A stretch of DNA of 64,000 nucleotides from a virus, in the IMG/VR virus record IMGVR_UViG_3300010938_000035, positions 1 to 64,000 of that record. One strand, given 5' to 3'. Within the stretch, counting starts at the first letter, position 1, and each line of letters opens with the position of its first letter. Both the position numbers and the translations under genes were made by a program. Under the pieces are notes generated by a model that saw nothing but the letters and a program-made list of their open reading frames with translations, searched no databases and had not been told where the DNA came from. Of the stretch, positions 18,909 through 60,537 are shown in pieces.

Positions 18909-19442
18909 TTAAAATTCTTTATTTAACCTAAATAAAATATCTTTAGAAATACCCCGATCAAATTTACTATCATCTGTTACGTCCACCATACTACTATACA
19001 TAGCACCTGCAAGAGTAGTTATGGGTCTTTTATCATTAGTAGTAGGATTACCATCATCACCAATTGGTGGTAAAGTCAATTCGGCTTTTAACATAAGGAG
19101 TAACCTATCAAATTCAGATCTTAATTTCTGTTCCTTAGTCGTAGTTTTTGGGGGAGCACCAGAATGAACAAAAACTTCTACATCAATAGCAGCTTGGAGG
19201 GCATTTAAAATTGAACAATAATTATAGACAATGCCAGGTGGTATTGGAATGTTGATACCATAACTAATAAAAAGAGGAACAAGTTTATCATAGGCTTGAT
19301 CAATAAAATCACAGACAGTTTGAATCGTAGGCTGTGTATCATTATGATATTTAAAATCATTATATTTTGTAGACACAGGTCTCAACAAAGCCTCAATCTG
19401 GGCTACTGTAGCTATACCCCTAACTGGAGTTGGATCTGCCAT
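18909..19442 (-). CDS. Head-tail connector-like protein
   Basis: This 177-residue, mostly helical protein matches the size and helix-rich layout of head-tail connector proteins (gp6/gp15-like). The ATG at 19442 is chosen because GGGAGG stands nine bases before it; an in-frame TTG at 19451 has no spacing. The gene overlaps the glycosyltransferase gene upstream by 23 bases, so the modification cassette is inserted directly ahead of it. The call is by position and fold impression only. Confidence 0.5.
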   Translation of the reverse strand: MADPTPVRGIATVAQIEALLRPVSTKYNDFKYHNDTQPTIQTVCDFIDQAYDKLVPLFISYGINIPIPPGIVYNYCSILNALQAAIDVEVFVHSGAPPKTTTKEQKLRSEFDRLLLMLKAELTLPPIGDDGNPTTNDKRPITTLAGAMYSSMVDVTDDSKFDRGISKDILFRLNKEF

Positions 19443-20313
19443 TTTTCTCAACCTCCCCCATCAATCTTGCTTCTTCTTTTGAACTTAAATGTGCTTCGTC
19501 TGTTAAAATCATATCTTCTGATTTCAGATCTAAATCTAAATTCAAACCATTAAGTTTGGTTTTCTTTTTATACTCTTCAAGACAATCCATATCCATTATA
19601 TGATATACAAAAGCTTTTGGATGTAACCAGCGTTCCACATTTAATCTTATGAGATCTCTAGTAGCACCCTCATCTTCTGTACAATTTTGCACAGATGCTT
19701 GATAGAATTTTACCCTACCCTTCTTAAATAGCCACGTTTTCATCAGAAAAATACCAGCCACAAGATCCATCTTAACAGGTGACTTAGAATTAAGAACTTC
19801 CTTATAATCAAATTCCCTGTCATACCGTCTCATATGTGCATTATATTTTAGGAAATTATATATACCGGATATCTTGGTAGAAGTCCTACACCATCCAGCT
19901 ATAACATCCTTATCAGCTTCTATTAATAATTTTAATGTATCCTTTTGAAGACAAATATCACTATCCATATATAACCAATAATTATCATACATGGATAGGG
20001 CATCTGTTATTGCATTCTTCAATCTACCCATAATCCAAATAGTTTTATCTCTGGTATTAACCTTTCTTTCATCTGGCCTAGTTCCAAAGTTCATCAATTC
20101 AACCACTATATACCTATATTGTTCACGATACAACTTTTTAAATTGTAAGAGCATTTTGAATGTGGCATCTTTACTATCATTTACAATAAAACGTAATCCA
20201 ATATATTTCTTTGGATAATCTAAGTTTACAATACTTTCTAATGTATAGGGTAATACCCATGCACGCTCTCTTACAGGGAAACCTATACACACATTATTAT
20301 TAATAGTAAACAT
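19420..20313 (-). CDS. GT-A family glycosyltransferase (Anp1/GT2-like)
   Basis: This protein of about 297 residues has the GT-A sugar-nucleotide transferase pattern: an N-terminal strand and loop (VCIGFPVRERAWVLPYTL), a strand with RFIVNDSKD, and the metal-binding DSD at residues 117-119 (WLYMDSDICL). WLHPKAFVYHIMD near the end is the usual C-terminal acidic/His strand. It would transfer a sugar to a protein, glycan or DNA acceptor. The ATG at 20313 has AAGGAG ten bases upstream; the GTG at 20322 does not. This is the last gene of a five-gene modification cassette inside the late operon, between capsid and connector genes. Confidence 0.75.
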   Translation of the reverse strand: MFTINNNVCIGFPVRERAWVLPYTLESIVNLDYPKKYIGLRFIVNDSKDATFKMLLQFKKLYREQYRYIVVELMNFGTRPDERKVNTRDKTIWIMGRLKNAITDALSMYDNYWLYMDSDICLQKDTLKLLIEADKDVIAGWCRTSTKISGIYNFLKYNAHMRRYDREFDYKEVLNSKSPVKMDLVAGIFLMKTWLFKKGRVKFYQASVQNCTEDEGATRDLIRLNVERWLHPKAFVYHIMDMDCLEEYKKKTKLNGLNLDLDLKSEDMILTDEAHLSSKEEARLMGEVEKNGRSNSS

Positions 20314-20333
20314 ATACAACACACTCCTTAATA

Positions 20334-21389
20334 TTAAACTAATAATAACTTATATGAATCATAATATTGCTCGGCAGTTTTTACAATATTATGGTTATTG
20401 TTTACATAATTAATTGCATTTTTATTTAAAGTTTCAAGTAATGTGTTACTATTAAGTAAATCAGATATATATTGTATGTATATACTATCCGTAGTACCAA
20501 ATCGCTTAGGAACAACTTTACCATATACAGAACCATTAACATTAATACATTCGACAATACCTCCCACACCCCCAACAACAGGAACACAACCACAAGCCAT
20601 GGCTTCCAATAAAGTAGCAGGTTGTCCTTCTGTAAAAGATGTGTGTAAATAGATCTTGGAAGCATTATATATATCACGTAATGTAGAGTGATCTGTAGAA
20701 CATAAAAATTTTAGATTCTTTCTACGTAAATTTTTGAACATAGTATAATATGGTTCCATTGGTTCATTAAATACTATACAGAATTTATAAGCATAGCATT
20801 TATCAACTATTGATTTAAGTATTTCTATACCTTTATGAACATCGGGTCTACCTACCCAACATATATCATAGAATCTATCAAGAATGTTAGATGTTGATCG
20901 CCAAAAAGTTAGATCAATACCATTCTTTATTACGCTGACAAAGGACGGACGTTTAGTTGGTGTTGTTAGAAAACAACGATTCTTATCAATCTCAGTAATA
21001 AATCCTCTATAATAGACAGGAGCCTCGTTTAACCATGCTATAGAAGGAGCATACACAGATTCAGTTATATCAGGAAAAACAGTATGAATAAATATAGTAA
21101 CATTATGTACTTTTGCGCAGTTTAATATAAAATCAAAAGAATCAAAAGCATGTATCATAGTATATTTATTCAAATTTAATAATTTAGATAAATTGGTTTT
21201 ACCATCCTCTACATAATAAACACGATCAAAACTCTGCTCATAGTATCTTTCTAATTTACCTTTTTGATATAAAACTATCAGATCTATTTTAATATCATTA
21301 AATATAGATTTAATAACTTTTGACAATCTCCATATAAAATTTTCAGCACCACCAATTTTAGCGCTACCTATTGTAAATAAGATATACAT
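20334..21389 (-). CDS. GT-B glycosyltransferase, GT4-like
   Basis: This 351-residue protein has the features of the GT4 family. The N terminus has the donor-domain motif GSAKIGGAENFIWRL. The C-terminal domain has LHTSFTEGQPATLLEAMACG, the E-x7-E nucleotide-sugar binding motif. IEILKSIVDKC and YNASKIYLHTS are also typical. It would be a retaining transferase that uses a nucleotide sugar. It overlaps the start of the methyltransferase gene by one base and so is coupled with it. Confidence 0.85.
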   Translation of the reverse strand: MYILFTIGSAKIGGAENFIWRLSKVIKSIFNDIKIDLIVLYQKGKLERYYEQSFDRVYYVEDGKTNLSKLLNLNKYTMIHAFDSFDFILNCAKVHNVTIFIHTVFPDITESVYAPSIAWLNEAPVYYRGFITEIDKNRCFLTTPTKRPSFVSVIKNGIDLTFWRSTSNILDRFYDICWVGRPDVHKGIEILKSIVDKCYAYKFCIVFNEPMEPYYTMFKNLRRKNLKFLCSTDHSTLRDIYNASKIYLHTSFTEGQPATLLEAMACGCVPVVGGVGGIVECINVNGSVYGKVVPKRFGTTDSIYIQYISDLLNSNTLLETLNKNAINYVNNNHNIVKTAEQYYDSYKLLLV

Positions 21390-22672
21390 TACACTCTCCT
21401 AAGTATGCATAACTGACGTTTACCCAAATCATATGTCTCAAAAATACTATAAGCCGTCTTACTCCTTATATATTCATGTATATTATTCCTAATACTGGGA
21501 TACATCCATTCAAAATATTCAATCTCAAATGGTTCCGGAACTTCATATATAAATCTGTGGGTTTTAGCACTTATTAAACCTAGCAATTCATCAAACTCTT
21601 CTATAGGATGGTAGCGCATAAAATGATGAAGAGATGAAAGAGCTAAAATCAAATCAACACAATATTCCTGTGATTGCATGAATTTAAGCATATCTGTACA
21701 TTGACATGATATATTCTGTTTCTTAAGAATTACACTGGCAATGTTATACCTAATTGGATCTAATTCTACAGCCCTACACCATGCATATTGACTATTTGAA
21801 TCTAAACCTTTTTTAATCCTACTTAAGGTAAACCCAAAACAACATCCTAAGTCATAAGCACTAATTAGCTTATGCTCTTTAACAAAATTTAACAAAAATT
21901 TTTCCTTTCTATCATCTCTATAGACCACCCAATTAGAAAAGTCAGGATGATCTATAGGTTGATATAATCCAATATTTTTGTAATGCTTTTTTACATTATT
22001 ATAAAAATCTTCCCATTCACTCTGCCTAAAAGTAACAACAAACTTTATTTCATCAATACGATCAAGATATATTAATATTGCAAATCTGTGTAACCCATCA
22101 AGAATTTCCAAAGAACCATCATTATGTATACCACAAATCAAATCACCATAAAAATGAGTATAATTTATATCAGGCCTGTATATTGAAATATAATTCCCTG
22201 TATTAACAAACCCATTATTTTTAATAGATCTATATAACTCTATAAATTCATTACATTGCTGTTTTACACCATCAATGTTTCTTAATAATTTACCCCAAAC
22301 AGTTCCATCATTAATATTTTCTATTAACATCTTATAATAAGAAGTCTCTTCTAATATAAAATTAGGAGACTCTAATTGTACTAATAAATCATAATGGGGA
22401 GTTTGTTTTATATAATTGATAAGATCAGTTGACCAAGGATCACTACCCAAATATTTATAACCACCAAAATCGTCAACTACATATGTTTTCTTGGAAGACA
22501 AATCAAATCCAAATTCAGACAAGGCAAGCTCACAATTATCATATATAATATCATTTGTATTAACATATGGTTTTATACACTCCAATGGTTTATCAGTATT
22601 ACACTTATTATGTTCATTTCGTTTAATGGTTTTGGTAGTCCTGACAACTGATTTTGAAGGTTTCTTAGCCAT
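21389..22672 (-). CDS. SAM-dependent methyltransferase with ParB-like N-terminal half
   Basis: This 427-residue protein has two parts. The N-terminal part has GSLEILDGLHRFAILIYL, which resembles the ParB/Srx-type DGxHR nucleotide-binding motif. The C-terminal part (about 250-427) is a class I methyltransferase: motif I is YDLGCCFGFTLSRIKKG, followed by AVELDPIRYNIA (the acidic ribose-binding residue) and VDLILALSSLHHFM. Such fusions occur in sugar and antibiotic tailoring clusters. It probably methylates a sugar or similar acceptor made by the neighbouring transferases. The gene is coupled with the GT4 gene by overlap. Confidence 0.75.
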   Translation of the reverse strand: MAKKPSKSVVRTTKTIKRNEHNKCNTDKPLECIKPYVNTNDIIYDNCELALSEFGFDLSSKKTYVVDDFGGYKYLGSDPWSTDLINYIKQTPHYDLLVQLESPNFILEETSYYKMLIENINDGTVWGKLLRNIDGVKQQCNEFIELYRSIKNNGFVNTGNYISIYRPDINYTHFYGDLICGIHNDGSLEILDGLHRFAILIYLDRIDEIKFVVTFRQSEWEDFYNNVKKHYKNIGLYQPIDHPDFSNWVVYRDDRKEKFLLNFVKEHKLISAYDLGCCFGFTLSRIKKGLDSNSQYAWCRAVELDPIRYNIASVILKKQNISCQCTDMLKFMQSQEYCVDLILALSSLHHFMRYHPIEEFDELLGLISAKTHRFIYEVPEPFEIEYFEWMYPSIRNNIHEYIRSKTAYSIFETYDLGKRQLCILRRV

Positions 22673-22688
22673 AATTTAATAATCCTCC

Positions 22689-24302
22689 TTACTGATAATT
22701 CCTAAAACAATATCTACATTCTTGTGGTATTTGTTCTTCTGAAAACTGCAATCTAAATTTCATAATATTATCACGCATCCAAATATTATCCTCATAGATA
22801 GAACCAAATAGTGGGCTTGGTGGATATATGGAATTACAAATACTCACAAATCCATTACCGTCAACGGCAATAGAATTATAAATGAATTCACATCGCCTTC
22901 TTTCTATATCAAGATCTATTAATATAGGATAACTCTTTATCAAACTGGAACAGGGGTGATTTTTTAGAAAAGATATTACCCAAAAATCTTCTGTAGTTAA
23001 TACATTATCTAAAAATTCGGTTTTATCTTGTTCTGTTTTCAATGTATGTGGTAAGAGGTTATTAAGATATACTCCAGAAACACCCAGGCTTTCGGCTAGT
23101 TTAAGAAACTGATCCAATTCTTTAACGCTAGTCTTGTTACAAACAAATGATAAGTACGTATTAATACCTCTATTAACAAGATATTTAATACCATCTATTA
23201 CTATATAAAACATACCATCAATACCAGTATTACTATAATGTAATCCCGGTGTTCCTGCATTTAAACTAACAGTAACCATAAAAGAACTGGGTGGATTAAC
23301 AAACCATTCCCACCTCTTTGTAATTAAAGATCCATTAGTAACAATATTAATAAACTTATTATTTGATTTGAGATATTCAATTATTTCAGGTAATTTATCA
23401 TATAATAAAGGTTCTCCTAACCCACACAAACAAAATCCACTAATTGTTGGGAACTTATTAACTGTATATTTAACTACATCCATATTAATAGAAATCAAGG
23501 AATTAATTATTGAAGGATCTTTTTGTCTAATACAAAACTTACATTTAAAATTACATTCTGATGTTATAAACAGAGTAGCATTCACAGGATGAGACTGTGA
23601 ACTTCTCAATTTTATAAAATTAGGATCTTTTATGATAAAACTTTTTTCCCTATTTCTAATAGCAGAAGTAACCTCAGACATTTCATACCCCCTTAAAGCA
23701 TAAAAATCTATAATATCATTAGTAACCTGATACCTTCTATATATTCTATCATATGCTTCAGGTATCCAGCTATATTTATATTTCTTATACTTATCTACCA
23801 AATCATAGTAACGATCAAACACAGTTTCATATGTCCAGTGAGGACTATGCTTACCTAATACAGTTTGTTCACATACTATGTTGTAACCATCGTTAAGTAA
23901 TCTATCTAATTGTTCTTTTTCACAAGAAAGAGTATTACAATTATAAGGATAATTTTTCATAATATCCATTTTATAGATCTTAACACCATACAAATTCATC
24001 TCAGTATGACAATCATACAACAAGAAACATGCCATACAAACATTATCAAGAGTTTTTACAATTGTATTATACATGATTTCTACTGCATTAGAATATAGTA
24101 TCATATCATCATCTACTTGTATATAATATTTTGTATTACATCGGAGAATCATTTCCTGAAATGCCTTACTCATAGGAGCAATACCATAGATTATATTTAT
24201 AGAAAAATCTACAGTTTGCTTTTTCAAACTCTCCATACACAGATCATAATTTGGGTTTTCACCAGTTGTTATAAGAAAAACGGTCAAATCTTTTAATATC
24301 AT
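22689..24302 (-). CDS. Fusion of GT-A glycosyltransferase and radical SAM enzyme with SPASM-like end
   Basis: This is a 537-residue protein. Residues 1-200 are a GT-A domain: strand VFLITTGENPNYDLCMESL and the DDD motif at 64-66 (YIQVDDDMIL). From about 245 a radical SAM domain begins: SECNFKCKFC gives CxxxCxxC at 250, 254 and 257 for the [4Fe-4S] cluster, then GFCLCGLGEPLLYDKLPEI (the SAM-binding GGEP-like site, here GLGEP) and INIVTNGSLI. The end has RRCEF, GFVSICNS and ECRYCF, a SPASM/twitch-like set of Cys for another cluster. It overlaps the next upstream gene by four bases. I do not recognise this architecture in phages. Confidence 0.85.
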   Translation of the reverse strand: MILKDLTVFLITTGENPNYDLCMESLKKQTVDFSINIIYGIAPMSKAFQEMILRCNTKYYIQVDDDMILYSNAVEIMYNTIVKTLDNVCMACFLLYDCHTEMNLYGVKIYKMDIMKNYPYNCNTLSCEKEQLDRLLNDGYNIVCEQTVLGKHSPHWTYETVFDRYYDLVDKYKKYKYSWIPEAYDRIYRRYQVTNDIIDFYALRGYEMSEVTSAIRNREKSFIIKDPNFIKLRSSQSHPVNATLFITSECNFKCKFCIRQKDPSIINSLISINMDVVKYTVNKFPTISGFCLCGLGEPLLYDKLPEIIEYLKSNNKFINIVTNGSLITKRWEWFVNPPSSFMVTVSLNAGTPGLHYSNTGIDGMFYIVIDGIKYLVNRGINTYLSFVCNKTSVKELDQFLKLAESLGVSGVYLNNLLPHTLKTEQDKTEFLDNVLTTEDFWVISFLKNHPCSSLIKSYPILIDLDIERRRCEFIYNSIAVDGNGFVSICNSIYPPSPLFGSIYEDNIWMRDNIMKFRLQFSEEQIPQECRYCFRNYQ

Positions 24303-25036
24303 TTTGCCCTCGTTCTATCTAAATTCTTTGGTTTATTCTTTTGTTTTATATCATTCAACTTCTTCCTAAACCACTCTTGACCAGGTCTGTATATGTCATC
24401 AAGACTGTTAGCACAGGTTTCATAATAATTAGTATACATTACTTCCTCCGGTAAATATAACACTTTCCACTTTCTTCTAGCAATATCATAACAAAAATTT
24501 ATCATATAAAAAGCATCTGATTCAGCATCAAACCCACCGACATCATCAAAAGCTTTCCTTCTTATTATAGCCAACTTTGAATCTATATAAGTATTATAAT
24601 CCTCTATTAATATATCATAAGATTCAGGAGAGTCCTGAAACCTCCTAAAAATTGGTTGGAATCCTAAAGGATTCTCAATACCAACATCAACTATTTCAAA
24701 GTTCCTACTTACTAACTTTAGACCAATTAAACCAATTTCTGGTTCTGTATTAAATCTGTCTATTATATCATTCAAAGGGGTTAAAAATAAAACCCCCACA
24801 TCTGCAACCATAATCAAAGGAGAAGATGTATTATTTATTGCCATATTAAGTGCATCTGGTATACTCTGTAAAAAATCGGGTTCTACCAAATTACAAGTAT
24901 AATCCCCCGGAACAAATTTCTCCAGGTTATTTAATGTATGTTGATATAACTCCTCCTGAGATAATCCAAATTCTAATCTAGGAACTTTCTTAACCAAAAA
25001 AACATCCATAATCATCTTTCGTAAAGTATTGAGCAT
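24299..25036 (-). CDS. GT-A glycosyltransferase-like protein
   Basis: This 245-residue protein has a GT2-like fold: LIMVADVGVLFLTPLNDII is the DxD-strand position (here ADVGV, lacking the second Asp), and RKAFDDVGGFDAESDAFY is the usual acceptor-side motif. The start is taken at the ATG at 25036, with AAAGGAG eight bases upstream; the in-frame TTG at 25054 would put that site inside the gene. The missing second Asp may mean another metal-binding mode or lost activity. It is the first gene of the cassette, after the capsid gene and a hairpin. Confidence 0.7.
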   Translation of the reverse strand: MLNTLRKMIMDVFLVKKVPRLEFGLSQEELYQHTLNNLEKFVPGDYTCNLVEPDFLQSIPDALNMAINNTSSPLIMVADVGVLFLTPLNDIIDRFNTEPEIGLIGLKLVSRNFEIVDVGIENPLGFQPIFRRFQDSPESYDILIEDYNTYIDSKLAIIRRKAFDDVGGFDAESDAFYMINFCYDIARRKWKVLYLPEEVMYTNYYETCANSLDDIYRPGQEWFRKKLNDIKQKNKPKNLDRTRAK

Positions 25037-25063
25037 AACAACAACTCCTTTCAAATAATATAA

Positions 25064-25185: not shown

Positions 25186-26106
25186 TTAACCTAGTGTGTG
25201 GGCTATTATAGCTCCGCATTCTGGAACAATGATCTTCTCATCTGTATATTCCATAACCTCAATTACGGTAGCCCTCTCCCACTGTAATTCGATCTTTCTT
25301 ACCAATCTTGTCTGCCACTGAAAAATATATCCCAATGAAATTCTTCTCAATCCAGGGCTAGGGTTAACAAAAGCTAAATAAACACTGTCACCCCAGATAT
25401 AAGAAAGATCTACTTCCTGACCAAGATTAGCAGCATTATATCCAGCACCAGCTACCTTAACAGTCATACCATATAATTTGTTTGGTATAAGTAGCTCAGA
25501 ATCGATTGTTAACAAATTCTGAACATATTTTACCATGTCCTTTATAGTTGGGTCATAAGTAAGAACACAAGCTACCTCATAAGGTATTATTATAGTATTA
25601 GGTTGCTGGAAACATTTGCTGTGAATATATTTTATTCTGCCTAATATATCCTTATCAAATGTACTACCATTTGTTCCCCAAGCAGTACCGGCATTAACAA
25701 CAGCATCTCCAATTATATTACTATCAAGAAGTCCCTTTACTTTAACTTCCTTATAAAGACCAATAACATCAGTACAATTTTCCGTTGCTTCGATTTCAGG
25801 AGAAATAGGTGTATCAGCATTATCTTTAACTTCTTGTGGTATCACTTCGCTAATAGCATGACACTCACAGAAGTAAGATCCGGTATCATAGGTGTGGTAG
25901 ATTGTTCTGGATCTTGTTCCTGGGGCTCTTCTGGTGTTTACATATTTAAAATGTTCTTTACCCTGAATATAATATTTATCACTTTGCTTTTTTACTGATA
26001 CAGTTGGAAATAAAGTTTCAGCAACAAATGCAGCATTGTGATGTTTTATTGATATATCAGTTAATGGACCATCTATATGAACTTCTTGCGGACTTGGTCT
26101 GATCAT
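25186..26106 (-). CDS. Major capsid protein
   Basis: This 306-residue protein fits the HK97-fold major capsid protein of Mu-like or capsid-E-like phages. It follows the protease/scaffold and decoration genes, it has the expected size, and its N terminus (NAAFVAETLFPTVSVKKQ) and C-terminal part (YLAFVNPSPGLRRISLGY then FQWQTRLVRK) are typical of this group. The strong ribosome binding site (AAAGGAGGT) suits the most abundant virion protein. A terminator-like hairpin follows it. Confidence 0.85.
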   Translation of the reverse strand: MIRPSPQEVHIDGPLTDISIKHHNAAFVAETLFPTVSVKKQSDKYYIQGKEHFKYVNTRRAPGTRSRTIYHTYDTGSYFCECHAISEVIPQEVKDNADTPISPEIEATENCTDVIGLYKEVKVKGLLDSNIIGDAVVNAGTAWGTNGSTFDKDILGRIKYIHSKCFQQPNTIIIPYEVACVLTYDPTIKDMVKYVQNLLTIDSELLIPNKLYGMTVKVAGAGYNAANLGQEVDLSYIWGDSVYLAFVNPSPGLRRISLGYIFQWQTRLVRKIELQWERATVIEVMEYTDEKIIVPECGAIIAHTLG

Positions 26107-29373: not shown

Positions 29374-32001
29374 TTACCTTTTTAATTTGAATTTTCTGAA
29401 TACTATATTTCTATAATAACTACGTTCCGCTTGATCTAATAATTCGGACAAGTATCTACTATTACTTTTATCTAAAAATAAGGGGTCAGCATAATCCAAT
29501 TGAGGCAAATAACGACATAAAGAAGAATCATTATAATTATAATAACTTAGTCTATTATTTTTGTCAATAAATTCACTATTAAATTTTAAATATTTATTAG
29601 TAAACCACTTTTTAGCACGCTCACCTATGTCAATTCTATATTGTTTCTCTGGTAAACGTATTTTATCAAGTCTACTATAAACCAATTTCTGTGCATCATC
29701 TATAGTTTTACCCGTAGCACAAATAGCACCAACTAATCCCGAAGTAGTAGTTACAAGTCTATCATGTTCATCTAGTCTAACATCAAACCAATAACATGAA
29801 TCAACAAAATCCTCAAACCCAGTTATTACCATATCTGAAGATCTCTTTGCAAGTTGCTTAGCAACAGATCTTCTCCTTTTACCAGATAAACCAGATGGGA
29901 GATCAACCATTGGATAGGGTGGAACAGATAAAGTAACTCCAATAGAAAAATCAGGAGGAAATTCGACATGATCTATATTACCAGTAGCTACAGCATAGAG
30001 TAATTCACAGAAAGACCCATCCCACAATTCCATTATATTCTCTATAGCCACATAACCACAATTACCACTCCATACAATTTTACCGTTTCTTCTAGTCAAT
30101 ATTATATGGTTAGGTGAAACATTGACACAATAAACTTTACCTTTATAATATTCTTTACTTATATTATTTATAGTTAAATATAAATCATCCTTTAATTTAT
30201 ATTGTTTAATACAATATAAATCCTGATCACAAAAACTATTACCTTTACAACGACATACCTTAATACGATCTTTTATGCTGTTATTATTTATTCTATATAA
30301 TCCCGTGTTAATTTTATTAATAACAGAACGCCCACATACCTTTAATATTAATTCTTGTAAGTCATCGGCTATTTGTTTAGTAGGTGCAAAATATAATATA
30401 TGATCATTTTCCGTGAGACAGTCACAACCAAGATGATACCCATTCAAAAAGCACTTTACACGATCCGATGCCAGTCCTTTAATAAAATTGGGTATATGTC
30501 TATTGCAACACTCGTGTAAATTAATAGTATTAATAATATCACTAGCAACTTGAATATTGTTTAACAATATACTACACTTAACTTTACCACTTCTATTAAT
30601 TGTTTCCAATACAAACATACTTTCTAATAAATCAAGATCGGCTAAAACAATTAATAGTTTACCTAATATATTGTTTGGTATTTCTGGAATTAAAATACCA
30701 AAATGATCGTCCTGATTGTGTAGTTTATGTGGTCTACCTATAGCAGTACACACTCCCAATAAAAATAGCCATGAATCCATCGATACTTGTTTTTCGGAAA
30801 ATGATTCATAAGATGGTAAAATATAGAAATTTTGATCATCACCACTCCAGACAGATAGACTAGACATCCAAAATTTATTAGATCCTAAGCTATTAATTAA
30901 CTCATCAGCTTGCATTAGTTTATAATGATTGTTATCTTGAGTAATAGCATATAACATATGATCGGGTGTTATTTTCATATTTATTAAATCATTATTAATT
31001 AATAACATCTCTCCATCATAATCTTTAACCACTTTATTATTAATTTTACAATACTCTAATTCCATGTTAGTGGGATTTAAAGTAGCAACTATTTCATCGT
31101 CTGAAATATCCTTAAAAAACTTGAATCCATCCTTAGTCAATATTTCAGTTTGATCATCATGACACCTAGGTGTAAACTCTAATGCATATATCTTATCATC
31201 ATCACCTACAATTGTATTAAGATCAATCGGACCCGAATATTTTTGTTTTTCAAGAAGGGGTAACAGTTTTTTAACATTGTGTGTTAAAATAGTTTCATGA
31301 GGAGAAAACCAAACAACTGATCCAGCAGATCCTATAGTCGGACCTAAATTACCGACTAGAAACTTCTTCTCTTCTATTGTATAATTATCAAATCCGGGTA
31401 TATACCTTCCATTAGCCAACCATATTTCAGTTGATATTTCAAATCCTTCAATAAACTTCTGAAGGATCAAGCCTTCAGTAACATCTATAAGCCTCTCATC
31501 TTTAAAATGTTCCAGCATATCTAACATATCATCTGGAGCTTTACTCGTATATGATGTAAAGGAACTTGCATTCTCTCCCATAATCTTAACAACATAACGA
31601 TCCGGGTTTTGCTTTACAAAGCTCATAGCAGCATCTATCGTTTTGAATTTATAAGTATCAGGTATCAATATACCATAATCTTGCATTATCTTGAGACCAT
31701 AGGACCTATCAAATTCTAGTTTGTCATTAAATACACCCCCAGAAAAAACAGGATAACCACGTTTCCTTAGGGAATCTGCTGTCCTACCCATACCAGTAGA
31801 ATCAAAAACAATAAAATCAAAATCATATTTCTCTAATGCAGTAACATAATCATCGGTCTTCTCTAACAATCCATCAAAAGTTTTACTATCAATACTACCG
31901 CCACCAGGATCATAATAAGCTATAACATCATGACCCTCTCTAAGTAAACGCTGACCTATACAAAACCCAGACCCAGTATGAGTCATTAGAAGAATTAACA
32001 T
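29374..32001 (-). CDS. PurD-like ATP-grasp ligase interrupted by an intein
   Basis: This is an 875-residue precursor. The ATG at 32001 is chosen because GGGAG lies eight bases before it. Residues 1-279 and 648-875 together (507 residues) match ATP-grasp ligases related to phosphoribosylamine-glycine ligase: the N-domain with GSGFCIGQRLLREGHDVIAYY, the ATP-grasp core with RYVVKIMGENASSF and EGLILQKFIEGFEISTEIW, and a C-terminal part with TTSGLVGAICATGKTIDDA and YRIDIGERA, which parallels the PurD end. Such enzymes ligate an acid to an amine at the cost of ATP. Here it lies in the head module, far from any purine gene. An intein breaks the metal-binding EFTPR/CGY motif. Confidence 0.8.
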   Translation of the reverse strand: MLILLMTHTGSGFCIGQRLLREGHDVIAYYDPGGGSIDSKTFDGLLEKTDDYVTALEKYDFDFIVFDSTGMGRTADSLRKRGYPVFSGGVFNDKLEFDRSYGLKIMQDYGILIPDTYKFKTIDAAMSFVKQNPDRYVVKIMGENASSFTSYTSKAPDDMLDMLEHFKDERLIDVTEGLILQKFIEGFEISTEIWLANGRYIPGFDNYTIEEKKFLVGNLGPTIGSAGSVVWFSPHETILTHNVKKLLPLLEKQKYSGPIDLNTIVGDDDKIYALEFTPRCHDDQTEILTKDGFKFFKDISDDEIVATLNPTNMELEYCKINNKVVKDYDGEMLLINNDLINMKITPDHMLYAITQDNNHYKLMQADELINSLGSNKFWMSSLSVWSGDDQNFYILPSYESFSEKQVSMDSWLFLLGVCTAIGRPHKLHNQDDHFGILIPEIPNNILGKLLIVLADLDLLESMFVLETINRSGKVKCSILLNNIQVASDIINTINLHECCNRHIPNFIKGLASDRVKCFLNGYHLGCDCLTENDHILYFAPTKQIADDLQELILKVCGRSVINKINTGLYRINNNSIKDRIKVCRCKGNSFCDQDLYCIKQYKLKDDLYLTINNISKEYYKGKVYCVNVSPNHIILTRRNGKIVWSGNCGYVAIENIMELWDGSFCELLYAVATGNIDHVEFPPDFSIGVTLSVPPYPMVDLPSGLSGKRRRSVAKQLAKRSSDMVITGFEDFVDSCYWFDVRLDEHDRLVTTTSGLVGAICATGKTIDDAQKLVYSRLDKIRLPEKQYRIDIGERAKKWFTNKYLKFNSEFIDKNNRLSYYNYNDSSLCRYLPQLDYADPLFLDKSNSRYLSELLDQAERSYYRNIVFRKFKLKR
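30061..31164 (-). other. Intein (368 residues) with decayed LAGLIDADG domain
   Basis: It runs from Cys1 (CHDDQTEILTKDGF, block A) to the terminal Asn before +1 Cys (VWSGN/CGY). Block B is NMKITPDHMLYA, block F is YCVNVSPNHIILT and block G is RNGKIVWSGN. The penultimate residue is Gly, not His. The middle shows two degenerate LAGLIDADG motifs, WLFLLGVCTAIGRP and CFLNGYHLGCDCL, both without the catalytic Asp in the expected place. So splicing residues look intact but the homing endonuclease looks dead. Its site, inside the ATP-grasp active-site motif, is typical of inteins. Confidence 0.9.
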
Positions 32002-32006
32002 ATAGG

Positions 32007-32225
32007 TCACTCCCAATCAAAGAATAATATCTGTTCGGAGCAAGCTATTGCTGATCCAACTATAGCCTTTGTCAAATCTTTCATATACTCAGTTTTAATA
32101 ATCTGAGCAGTCTCAGGATCAAAATTAGCATCAATCTCCGAAAACAATTGAGCCGTGATCTCATCAAGAGATTCACAAACTTCATTGAGTACCATATCAG
32201 TAATATCAGATATGCTTTTACTCAT
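32007..32225 (-). CDS. Small helical protein, paralogue of 34882-35181
   Basis: This 72-residue protein aligns over most of its length with the one at 34882-35181: MSKSISDITDMVLNEVCESL against MNKNIDEIVNMVINEIKEPL, and LTKAIVGSAIACSEQI against LAKAMIGSAISCGDDI. It is predicted to be helical, with one Cys conserved between the copies. The two copies flank the 847-residue protein of the head module. Function is unknown; a small structural or regulatory subunit is possible. Confidence 0.65.
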   Translation of the reverse strand: MSKSISDITDMVLNEVCESLDEITAQLFSEIDANFDPETAQIIKTEYMKDLTKAIVGSAIACSEQILFFDWE

Positions 32226-58071: not shown

Positions 58072-58104
58072 ACTGGAGAAACCCCCCTTCTCCAGTTATT
58101 TTTT
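58072..58104 (+). terminator. Rho-independent terminator of the secreted-protein gene
   Basis: ACTGGAGAA (58072-58080) pairs with TTCTCCAGT (58088-58096), with an ACCCCCC loop, and TATTTTTTT follows. It ends plus-strand transcripts. The stem abuts the stop of the polymerase gene on the other strand. Confidence 0.75.
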
Positions 58105-60537
58105 TAGCATGTCTCCCCAACTCTTAGCATACTTTATACCAGCAATAATGGGAACTTTTAGTTTAAACCCAAATGGTAATTCTATGTGTTCTGCTATATT
58201 GACTAGTTCTTTACAAATGTCCTCTAGCTGATCTTCTCTACAAGAAGAAACTAACTCATCATGAATTATGGCATGAGGTATAATAAATAACCTGTCCTTA
58301 GGATAAATTTCTCTTCCAAATTTGTCAAAGGATCGTCTATATCCTAATTTATTCCATGCTTCCTCAAAAATACATAACATTATATCCGATGCTGTGGATT
58401 GTATTGGATAATTGATGGCTTGCCTATATACCAAATCAAAGTTATTCTCTGTCCAGTGGAAAGTTCTAACTCTACCAAAAGGTGTGCTAATTGGTATAAA
58501 ATTGAGTAGCATATATTTTATATTATTAAGATATGTATTTATGCCCGGAAATTTGCTAAATAGTTTTTTAATAAAATCTTCTGCTTCTTTATTGCTTATA
58601 TTCAACCTTCTGGCTAAACCATGAGCAGATTCACCGTAAACAATACCAAAGTTTACATTCTTTGCTATTTTTCTGTCTATACCCAACGCATCCGCTGTTT
58701 CTTGGTGGATGTCTTTACCTTCAATAAAGGCATTTATGAGATTAGGATCTTCTGTAAATTCGGCTAATATTCTTAGTTCGATCTGACTCAAGTCAAGTGA
58801 CACAAGAATAAATCCATCATCCGCTTTAAACATATTTCTCATTGCTACTGTGTGAGGTATTACCTGTATAGAAAAATTAGAAGAACTTAGTCTTCCAGTC
58901 CTAGCTCCAGCTATATTGAATAAGGGATGTCCTCTACCATCTTCACATATGAATGTATTGAGAGGGCCAATGTATTTACTAATTAGATCTTTTAGTCTTT
59001 TACACACTAATATTGATTTTACAATTGGTATTGTTGAATATATGTTTAATATTTCTTTATCAACTACCGGTTCTTTCGTTTTCTTGCTCTTTTTTAATAT
59101 CTCTAGACCCAATACATTGAATAAAAGTTTTTTACAATGTTGGGGTGATCTAACATTAAATTCATTACATCCTAAACTTTTGTAAGTATATTGTACCGAT
59201 GGGTGCTTATTTATCAACGTCTCCAATAATTTTATCTTATTTGATAACCACTGTTTGTTTTTGTTATAAACTGTATAATCAAATATAATACCATTGTGTG
59301 TAGTATTACACAATAACGGTATCTTTCTCTTTAACCATAAATAGGTATTATAAAGATTTCTTCTCTTCAGTTCATCAATTTGCCTTTCTGTTATAATTCT
59401 AGCAACTAGGGCATCATGTGCACAATATCTAGCTAAAATGTTTAAAGGTATTTCACCATAGTCCTTGTTACTTCTCCCTAATTTTTCATATAATAACTCC
59501 AGATCTTTTTCGTAACCACCAAAATCAGTAAATTTTAATGCTAGTGTTTTTAAATCTCTACCTCCTAGATCATCAGGATTGATTAAATAAGTAGCTAGAA
59601 AGGAATCTTCAAATTCAACACGAGAAGGATCTACATTATCAAACCTAGACAAGCATAGTAATTCCGCAGAAATATTGTGTGATGTTATATGTTTACCCTT
59701 GATAGCTTTTGCTATTGGAAAGTTTCTACCAATAAAAGGAGAGTCCTTGTGGTCTTCTGGTATACAATATCCTGTTTCATTGTCAATAGCTATCCCTACA
59801 CATAACCTCTTAACAGCTTGTTTATATAATGATTTCTTATCATCATTATATTTACTAACATCATACTCAAAATCAATACTTATTAACTTGTCTGTGTGAG
59901 AAAGCTCATGTAAAAAGTTCAAAACATCCTTCTCATATTCAAATATAACAATATTAGCTTTTGTGGGTTTATACGTTCCATTAACTATGGATTCTGCTAG
60001 CATAAGAGTAGGTATATAGCATTTGTTAGCTTGAACTATAGCTTCACTACCCATTCTTACAAAGAAAGATGGGTGATAATCACACAAAACAGGCAGTTTA
60101 CCTTCCCAAAATACTTTTTCTCTGATAGCTCCTATGTGTATTTTACCCCTTATGCGTGGATCATTTTCTAGGAAAGTTTTGATTGTCGGTTCACCTAGCA
60201 GAAGAACAACTTTTGGTTTTGCTTTTATAACATCATTCAAAAATCTATTACTACAAAATCTTATTTCGTTCTTTTCAGGATTTCTATTTTTACCATCGGA
60301 ATCGGTAGGTCTGCAGGCTACTATATTTGTCATAGCAAATGACAGCTTACTTGAAAATAAATAAGGTCTGAGTAGCTTACCCGACTTACCTACAAATACT
60401 TTACCTTGTTCTTCTTCATCACTCCCAGGTGCAATACCAATAACTAATAAATCTACTGGAGGATCCGTTGAAAAATACGGTTCACATATTGTTTTCCCAA
60501 ATAAAGGGCATCTGGTTTGATTACAACTATTAAGCAT
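58096..60537 (-). CDS. Family A DNA polymerase fused to uracil-DNA glycosylase-like domain
   Basis: This is an 813-residue fusion. Residues 1-190 look like an iron-sulphur UDG (family 4 type): GIAPGSDEEEQGKVFVG at 34-50, HPSFF at 155-159, and Cys5/10/18, Cys75 and Cys95 as cluster ligands. Residues 200-380 are a DnaQ-like 3'-5' exonuclease (SIDFEYDVSKY, with YCAHDAL late). The rest is a PolA-type polymerase: VSLDLSQIELRILAEF (motif A), KNVNFGIVYGES (motif B) and HAIIHDELVSS (motif C). Similar UDG-like N-domains are reported for SPO1-group phage polymerases. It makes phage DNA and may handle uracil. Confidence 0.9.
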   Translation of the reverse strand: MLNSCNQTRCPLFGKTICEPYFSTDPPVDLLVIGIAPGSDEEEQGKVFVGKSGKLLRPYLFSSKLSFAMTNIVACRPTDSDGKNRNPEKNEIRFCSNRFLNDVIKAKPKVVLLLGEPTIKTFLENDPRIRGKIHIGAIREKVFWEGKLPVLCDYHPSFFVRMGSEAIVQANKCYIPTLMLAESIVNGTYKPTKANIVIFEYEKDVLNFLHELSHTDKLISIDFEYDVSKYNDDKKSLYKQAVKRLCVGIAIDNETGYCIPEDHKDSPFIGRNFPIAKAIKGKHITSHNISAELLCLSRFDNVDPSRVEFEDSFLATYLINPDDLGGRDLKTLALKFTDFGGYEKDLELLYEKLGRSNKDYGEIPLNILARYCAHDALVARIITERQIDELKRRNLYNTYLWLKRKIPLLCNTTHNGIIFDYTVYNKNKQWLSNKIKLLETLINKHPSVQYTYKSLGCNEFNVRSPQHCKKLLFNVLGLEILKKSKKTKEPVVDKEILNIYSTIPIVKSILVCKRLKDLISKYIGPLNTFICEDGRGHPLFNIAGARTGRLSSSNFSIQVIPHTVAMRNMFKADDGFILVSLDLSQIELRILAEFTEDPNLINAFIEGKDIHQETADALGIDRKIAKNVNFGIVYGESAHGLARRLNISNKEAEDFIKKLFSKFPGINTYLNNIKYMLLNFIPISTPFGRVRTFHWTENNFDLVYRQAINYPIQSTASDIMLCIFEEAWNKLGYRRSFDKFGREIYPKDRLFIIPHAIIHDELVSSCREDQLEDICKELVNIAEHIELPFGFKLKVPIIAGIKYAKSWGDMLKK

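Follow-up and report, generated by a model that had tools for sequence, protein, structure and literature searches.

A glycosyltransferase fused to a Twitch-like radical SAM domain recurs in uncultivated viruses and may tailor a phage-encoded glycan

The window analysed here is a stretch of 64,000 nucleotides (positions 1 to 64,000) from the 64,907-base virus record IMGVR_UViG_3300010938_000035. Its minus strand carries a cassette (19420-25054) with gaps of -4 to 16 nt between the genes, which lies on the late-gene strand, 131 nt after the major capsid gene. Within this cassette, one gene encodes a GT-A glycosyltransferase (GT) and a radical SAM (rSAM) enzyme in a single chain. The genes, and the features of the fusion protein, are as follows.

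19420-20322 (-), Anp1-like GT-A glycosyltransferase (PF03452, E 9.7e-14)
20334-21389 (-), GT4-type glycosyltransferase (PF00534, E 9.9e-13)
21389-22672 (-), partner gene, DGxHR region and SAM methyltransferase (homologues near the pair; Methyltransf_11 in 6 of 7 members)
22689-24302 (-), GT-A / radical SAM-Twitch fusion gene, 537 aa (Pfam, homologues and model)
22707-22892 (-), Twitch-like auxiliary region, C471-x12-G-x4-C489 ... C529-x2-C532 (four Cys invariant, 12/12)
22932-23597 (-), radical SAM partial-barrel domain, residues 236-457 (PF04055, E 3.8e-11; Z 22.6 to BlsE)
23046-23060 (-), N415-x-L-P-H419, family-specific candidate active-site residues, role inferred (N, L and P 12/12; H 11/12)
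23532-23555 (-), cluster motif C250-x3-C254-x2-C257 (three Cys invariant, 12/12)
23598-24302 (-), GT-A glycosyltransferase module, residues 1-235 (33-47% identity to viral-contig modules; VIA-align fold matches)
23847-23855 (-), G150-x-H152, possible third metal ligand of the GT-A site, role inferred (H152 in 18/19 modules)
24105-24113 (-), DxD motif D64-D65-D66, predicted metal and nucleotide-sugar binding (D64 and D66 invariant, 19/19 modules)
24299-25054 (-), upstream GT-A-like gene, end overlapping the fusion ATG by 4 nt (PF13712, E 0.0015, under cut-off; 36% identity to L002)
25186-26106 (-), gene of the major capsid protein, lying just upstream of the cassette (phrog_1005 major head protein, E 5.3e-53)

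The fusion ORF reads from ATG to stop without a break. A sequence-only reading of this DNA had proposed a GT-A domain joined to a radical SAM domain, with DDD at residues 64-66 and CxxxCxxC at 250-257. Both motifs lie at these positions, the second reading CNFKCKFC, and the presence of the two domains in one chain was borne out by a Radical_SAM match above the Pfam cut-off (PF04055, residues 246-402), by homologues of the GT module, and by fused homologues over the whole length (E 5.6e-126 for L084, 8e-124 for L083 and 3.7e-74 for L087). A frameshift or misassembly at the joint could be rejected, since independent contigs carry the same uninterrupted GT-rSAM joint. The AlphaFold model built with relatives (24 aligned sequences) had a pLDDT of 92.9 and a pTM of 0.81; the prediction from the single sequence (pLDDT 37) was useless.

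On the GT half, the Pfam model PF00535 (Glycos_transf_2) gave E 0.067 and 13.6 bits, below its gathering cut-off of 23.3, and the GT module of another locus (L062) also remained under this cut-off with 20.0 bits. Searches with the single protein yielded no relative among viral contigs and genome contigs, and only one distant rSAM protein in phages. The apparent orphan status of the protein was rejected as an artefact of exact-pattern searching: relatives were found with a degenerate DNA pattern for the DxD region, and then with profiles. The pattern, written for [FY][IFLY]QVD[DE]DM, led to long multidomain glycosyltransferases in viral contigs, the modules of which can be aligned over the full span of residues 1-235, with 36-45% identity. 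With the profile scan, the module was located in 13 viral-contig loci and in one locus of a Burkholderiales MAG, the only one of 398 sampled cellular genomes to contain it; the identity is 33-47% and extends over the greater part or the whole of these residues. The first 154 residues of the model superpose on GT-A enzymes with Z scores of 16-17.5, the highest (VIA-align) being for 6p61 (Z 17.5, 2.3 A over 151 residues), with WrtF, SpsA and B4GALNT1 at about 16. Many viral contigs carry the GT-A module in the absence of any rSAM, and the module can therefore act alone.

In the radical SAM half, none of the 12 family members has lost a cysteine of the CX3CX2C motif, a loss that would have counted against the sequence-only reading. 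The barrel contains a GxGEP-type SAM motif, in which G294 and G296-E297-P298 are invariant, and C291 is retained in all 12 members, as are N415 and P418 (H419 in 11). In L086/L090 (5259-8921), an otherwise well conserved member, an insert of 4 residues shifts the third cysteine to give CX3CX6C.

Twitch regions have four cysteines in the spacing CX9-15GX4C ... CX2C. The tail of the fusion protein appears to conform to it, with C471-x12-G484-x4-C489 followed by C529-x2-C532. Auxiliary clusters number two in SPASM proteins and one in Twitch proteins (PMC10470005). The Pfam SPASM model (PF13186) spans residues 471-532 with E 7.5e-4, just under its cut-off, and the conserved auxiliary cysteines are limited to the four at 471, 489, 529 and 532, versus seven for SPASM. 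The end of the protein, previously described as Cys-rich and SPASM-like, is thus indeed Cys-rich, but it is Twitch-like and not SPASM because it has four auxiliary cysteines.

The best structural match of the rSAM half was BlsE (PDB 7vob), over 275 residues, tied with the peptide maturases SuiB (Z 22.4) and SkfB (Z 22.1); DesII, MoaA and BtrN followed with 20.4, 20.2 and 16.9, respectively. With Z scores equal or nearly so for BlsE and DesII, which act on sugars, and for the peptide maturases SuiB and SkfB, the fold alone gives no verdict on the substrate. BlsE is a cytosylglucuronate decarboxylase, which decarboxylates a nucleoside-linked sugar (PMC3715490). It resembles the rSAM half of the window protein in having both a SAM cluster and auxiliary cysteines, and it acts on a sugar ring (PMC3715490), but it is only 16% identical, stands alone and uses a small nucleoside substrate, whereas the window domain belongs to a phage and follows a GT-A domain in the same chain. 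BtrN and DesII, from aminoglycoside and deoxysugar pathways, share the fold and have sugar-type substrates, and BtrN has one auxiliary cluster and two clusters in all (PMC3715490); however, these enzymes lack a glycosyltransferase fusion and are 14-18% identical. The best plasmid matches (E 4e-10) were rSAM proteins from the plasmid rfb cluster of Brachyspira hyodysenteriae, the genes of which adjoin rfbF/rfbC, a glycosyltransferase and an epimerase (PMC4267127). Unlike the window protein, these are bacterial, stand-alone proteins of putative function, several in tandem and about 25-31% alike.

The pairing of GT-A and rSAM is neither an artefact nor a singleton: it was found in at least nine further sequences of uncultivated viruses. 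Besides the window, the two domains are fused in L078(=L094), L079(=L093), L083, L084, L086(=L090), L087 and L091, always in the order GT then rSAM; the L078 protein is a compact version with 592 aa. In L076(=L085) and L077(=L060=L092) they are encoded by two overlapping genes, in L082 by genes separated by 1.3 kb, and in L088/L089 the family rSAM occurs alone, the GT module being absent from the locus. The family was found by searching the ORFs of GT-module loci with the C-terminal half, followed by an rSAM profile scan. Five members were seeds of the rSAM profile and had been found through the GT; they were therefore left out of the co-occurrence test, in which the GT module was present in 6 of 7 family loci versus 0 of 16 distant-rSAM loci of the same scan (Fisher p 7e-5). 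The two halves have also diverged in a correlated manner, the distances in the GT and rSAM trees giving a Mantel r of 0.52 (p 3e-4), or 0.40 (p 0.008) once the near copy L084 is left out. On the trees the fused and split forms are intermixed, requiring about 4 changes, with 9 of 12 inner branches poorly supported; there has thus been repeated fusion or fission, or else the tree lacks the power to decide.

The sequence-only reading had considered such a chain new for phages. This holds in part: the window phage is not alone, seven other distinct viral sequences having the fusion, while the isolate phages searched were without it. In a collection of 50,697 phage records, tblastn queries with the window protein, with its N-terminal half and with two fused relatives found neither the fusion nor the GT module. 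Among 27 records sharing the capsid region no relative of the fusion protein was found, the five rSAM matches there being short, separate proteins. The sole phage match, MT837634, was discarded as an unfused maturase-like protein. phrog_21308 (735 aa, rSAM at 420-533) was not counted as a case of the same architecture, the match covering the rSAM part only. A search of journal papers with open full text found no description of the fusion.

Two further architectures were observed. In L083 (7275-10586) and L084 (7257-10604), GT-A, radical SAM, GT4 (by Pfam) and a further GT-A-like part with DCDA (by eye) follow one another in a chain of about 1,100 aa, a possible glycan assembly line. Three other viral contigs (L095, L096 and L102) contain two to five tandem radical SAM ORFs, unlinked to a GT module.

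The genes around the relatives are largely those of glycan synthesis: GT2, GT4, GT9, GT10, a PIG-L deacetylase, WbqC, TylF-type and other methyltransferases, NDP-sugar epimerases and a cytidylyltransferase. Homologues of the partner gene at 21389-22672 lie near the pair in L083, L084, L076/L085, L077/L092 and L086/L090, and one follows the GT module in L075/L080. The DGxHR region of this gene we take to be ParB/Srx-like by eye, a label that rests on the DGxHR motif, Pfam giving no match. Across 398 sampled genomes, the nearest cellular relative found of the rSAM half is a stand-alone protein of one Pseudomonadota genome (E ~1e-45 to 4.6e-47). Named from their translations, the genes around it look like a polysaccharide cluster and include GT4, GT2, galE-like, flippase-like and methyltransferase genes. 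Taken together, these surroundings speak for sugar or glycan chemistry more than for alteration of the residue that bears the sugar. In addition, what by eye resembles the P-loop start of a sulfotransferase, though not matched by Pfam, was seen downstream of the GT-rSAM gene in L094 (10571-11437) and L093 (9604-10554).

Capsid genes lie near the pair in 3 of about a dozen loci, many of the contigs being fragments. Apart from the window these are L094, where a homologous capsid gene (E 2.4e-32) is found ~4 kb before the fusion gene, and L092, in which a major head protein immediately precedes the GT/rSAM pair. The closest sister contig (L002), with a capsid protein 62% identical to that of the window, has the first glycosyltransferase of the cassette in the same place beside the capsid gene, after which the contig ends. 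A terminase search found nothing, and promoter and terminator scans remained at chance level.

We lean towards a phage-made bifunctional enzyme that adds a sugar and, by radical chemistry, alters that or a neighbouring sugar on a phage-encoded glycan, most likely on a virion protein. The GT-A domain would use a nucleotide-sugar donor to transfer a sugar onto the glycan, with a metal bound at D64/D66. In the radical SAM domain, a [4Fe-4S] cluster held by C250, C254 and C257 would cleave SAM to the 5'-deoxyadenosyl radical, and this radical may abstract a hydrogen from a sugar carbon. A single auxiliary cluster (C471/489/529/532) could serve in substrate binding or electron removal, and the just-added or acceptor sugar would become epimerised, oxidised, deoxygenated or otherwise rearranged. 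The glycan may be extended and capped by the methyltransferase partner together with the three other glycosyltransferases. A virion protein is the most likely acceptor, since the genes of the cassette are closely spaced on a single strand and come immediately after the major capsid gene. The earlier proposal that one chain both adds and alters a sugar remains the best reading, whereas its variant, in which the residue carrying the sugar is altered, is disfavoured by the gene context. A precedent comes from mycobacteriophages, whose capsid and tail tube are glycosylated by glycosyltransferases of the phages' own; those of Che8, Corndog and Myrna are required for capsid glycosylation (PMC12363180). 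A Che8 glycosyltransferase was among the viral fold matches of the window protein. However, the mycobacteriophage virion glycosyltransferases have no reported radical SAM partner.

The main rival is that the same chemistry is directed at a glycan of the host surface (O-antigen or capsule), altered by the phage to exclude other phages. This is how glycosyltransferase clusters of pelagimyophages have been interpreted (PMC7029224). The GT4, GT9, GT10 and NDP-sugar genes in the neighbourhood are of kinds typically seen with surface polysaccharide, and among cellular rSAM relatives the nearest one found sits in a polysaccharide cluster. We nevertheless regard a host-surface target as rather unlikely, though a serious contender: the cassette of the window stands within the late structural genes, shares their strand and comes directly after the capsid gene, the pairs of L094 and L092 are likewise near head genes, and neither a flippase nor a polymerase was noticed among the genes of the window cassette. 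Closeness to a capsid gene in these three loci, the arrangement in L002 and the mycobacteriophage precedent make a virion glycan the first choice.

Less probable still is a scheme in which the rSAM half modifies a peptide residue, by epimerisation or cross-linking of a structural protein that the GT half then glycosylates. SuiB, SkfB, PqqE, ChlB and anSME all lie within about 2.5 Z of the best match, and many NCBIfam peptide-maturase models match, weakly and all far under cut-off; but sugar genes surround nearly all relatives and the nearest cellular relative, the part before the barrel is a glycosyltransferase and not a leader-peptide binding domain, and the one-cluster auxiliary pattern occurs in sugar enzymes too. 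Hypermodification of DNA, with the enzyme acting on a modified base in phage DNA, seems very improbable. Phage rSAM enzymes in base hypermodification do exist. Phages are also known to glycosylate modified DNA bases (PMC7653180). Against this, a thymidylate synthase-type gene is absent from the record (search controls positive), the replication proteins scanned included no base-modifying gene, and the cassette adjoins capsid genes instead of replication genes. We give hardly any credence to a viperin-like nucleotide enzyme joined to an unrelated glycosyltransferase: viperins do appear among the sequence and fold matches (Z up to 18.8), but the NCBIfam model NF038283 scores 40.4 bits, far below its cut-off of 180, the auxiliary four-Cys region is present, and the glycan context is consistent.

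Radical SAM enzymes acting on sugars and phage glycosyltransferases are each already known; what is new is their stable joining in viruses. To our knowledge, the sugar-modifying radical SAM enzymes belong to antibiotic and deoxysugar pathways and are separate proteins. Somewhat tentatively, the proteins described here may form a new viral enzyme family in which one chain couples glycosyl transfer to radical C-H chemistry, giving unusual sugars on particles and a radical-tailored virion glycan, with L083/L084 as a GT-A/rSAM/GT4/GT-A-like assembly line. If so, phages would offer glycan chemistry of a new class, through a conserved fusion recurring in uncultivated viruses and lying, in the window, beside the capsid gene, and the radical step would be tied to one glycosylation step. 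The partner glycosyltransferase and the neighbouring capsid protein provide leads to the substrate.

Elsewhere in the window, a family A DNA polymerase carries a fused uracil-DNA glycosylase domain (58096-60537). An ATP-grasp (GARS-like) gene with an intein is present both in the window (29374-32016) and in L002 (4162-6621). The two inteins are related to each other and apparently occupy different extein positions, after about residue 287 in the window and about residue 203 in L002.
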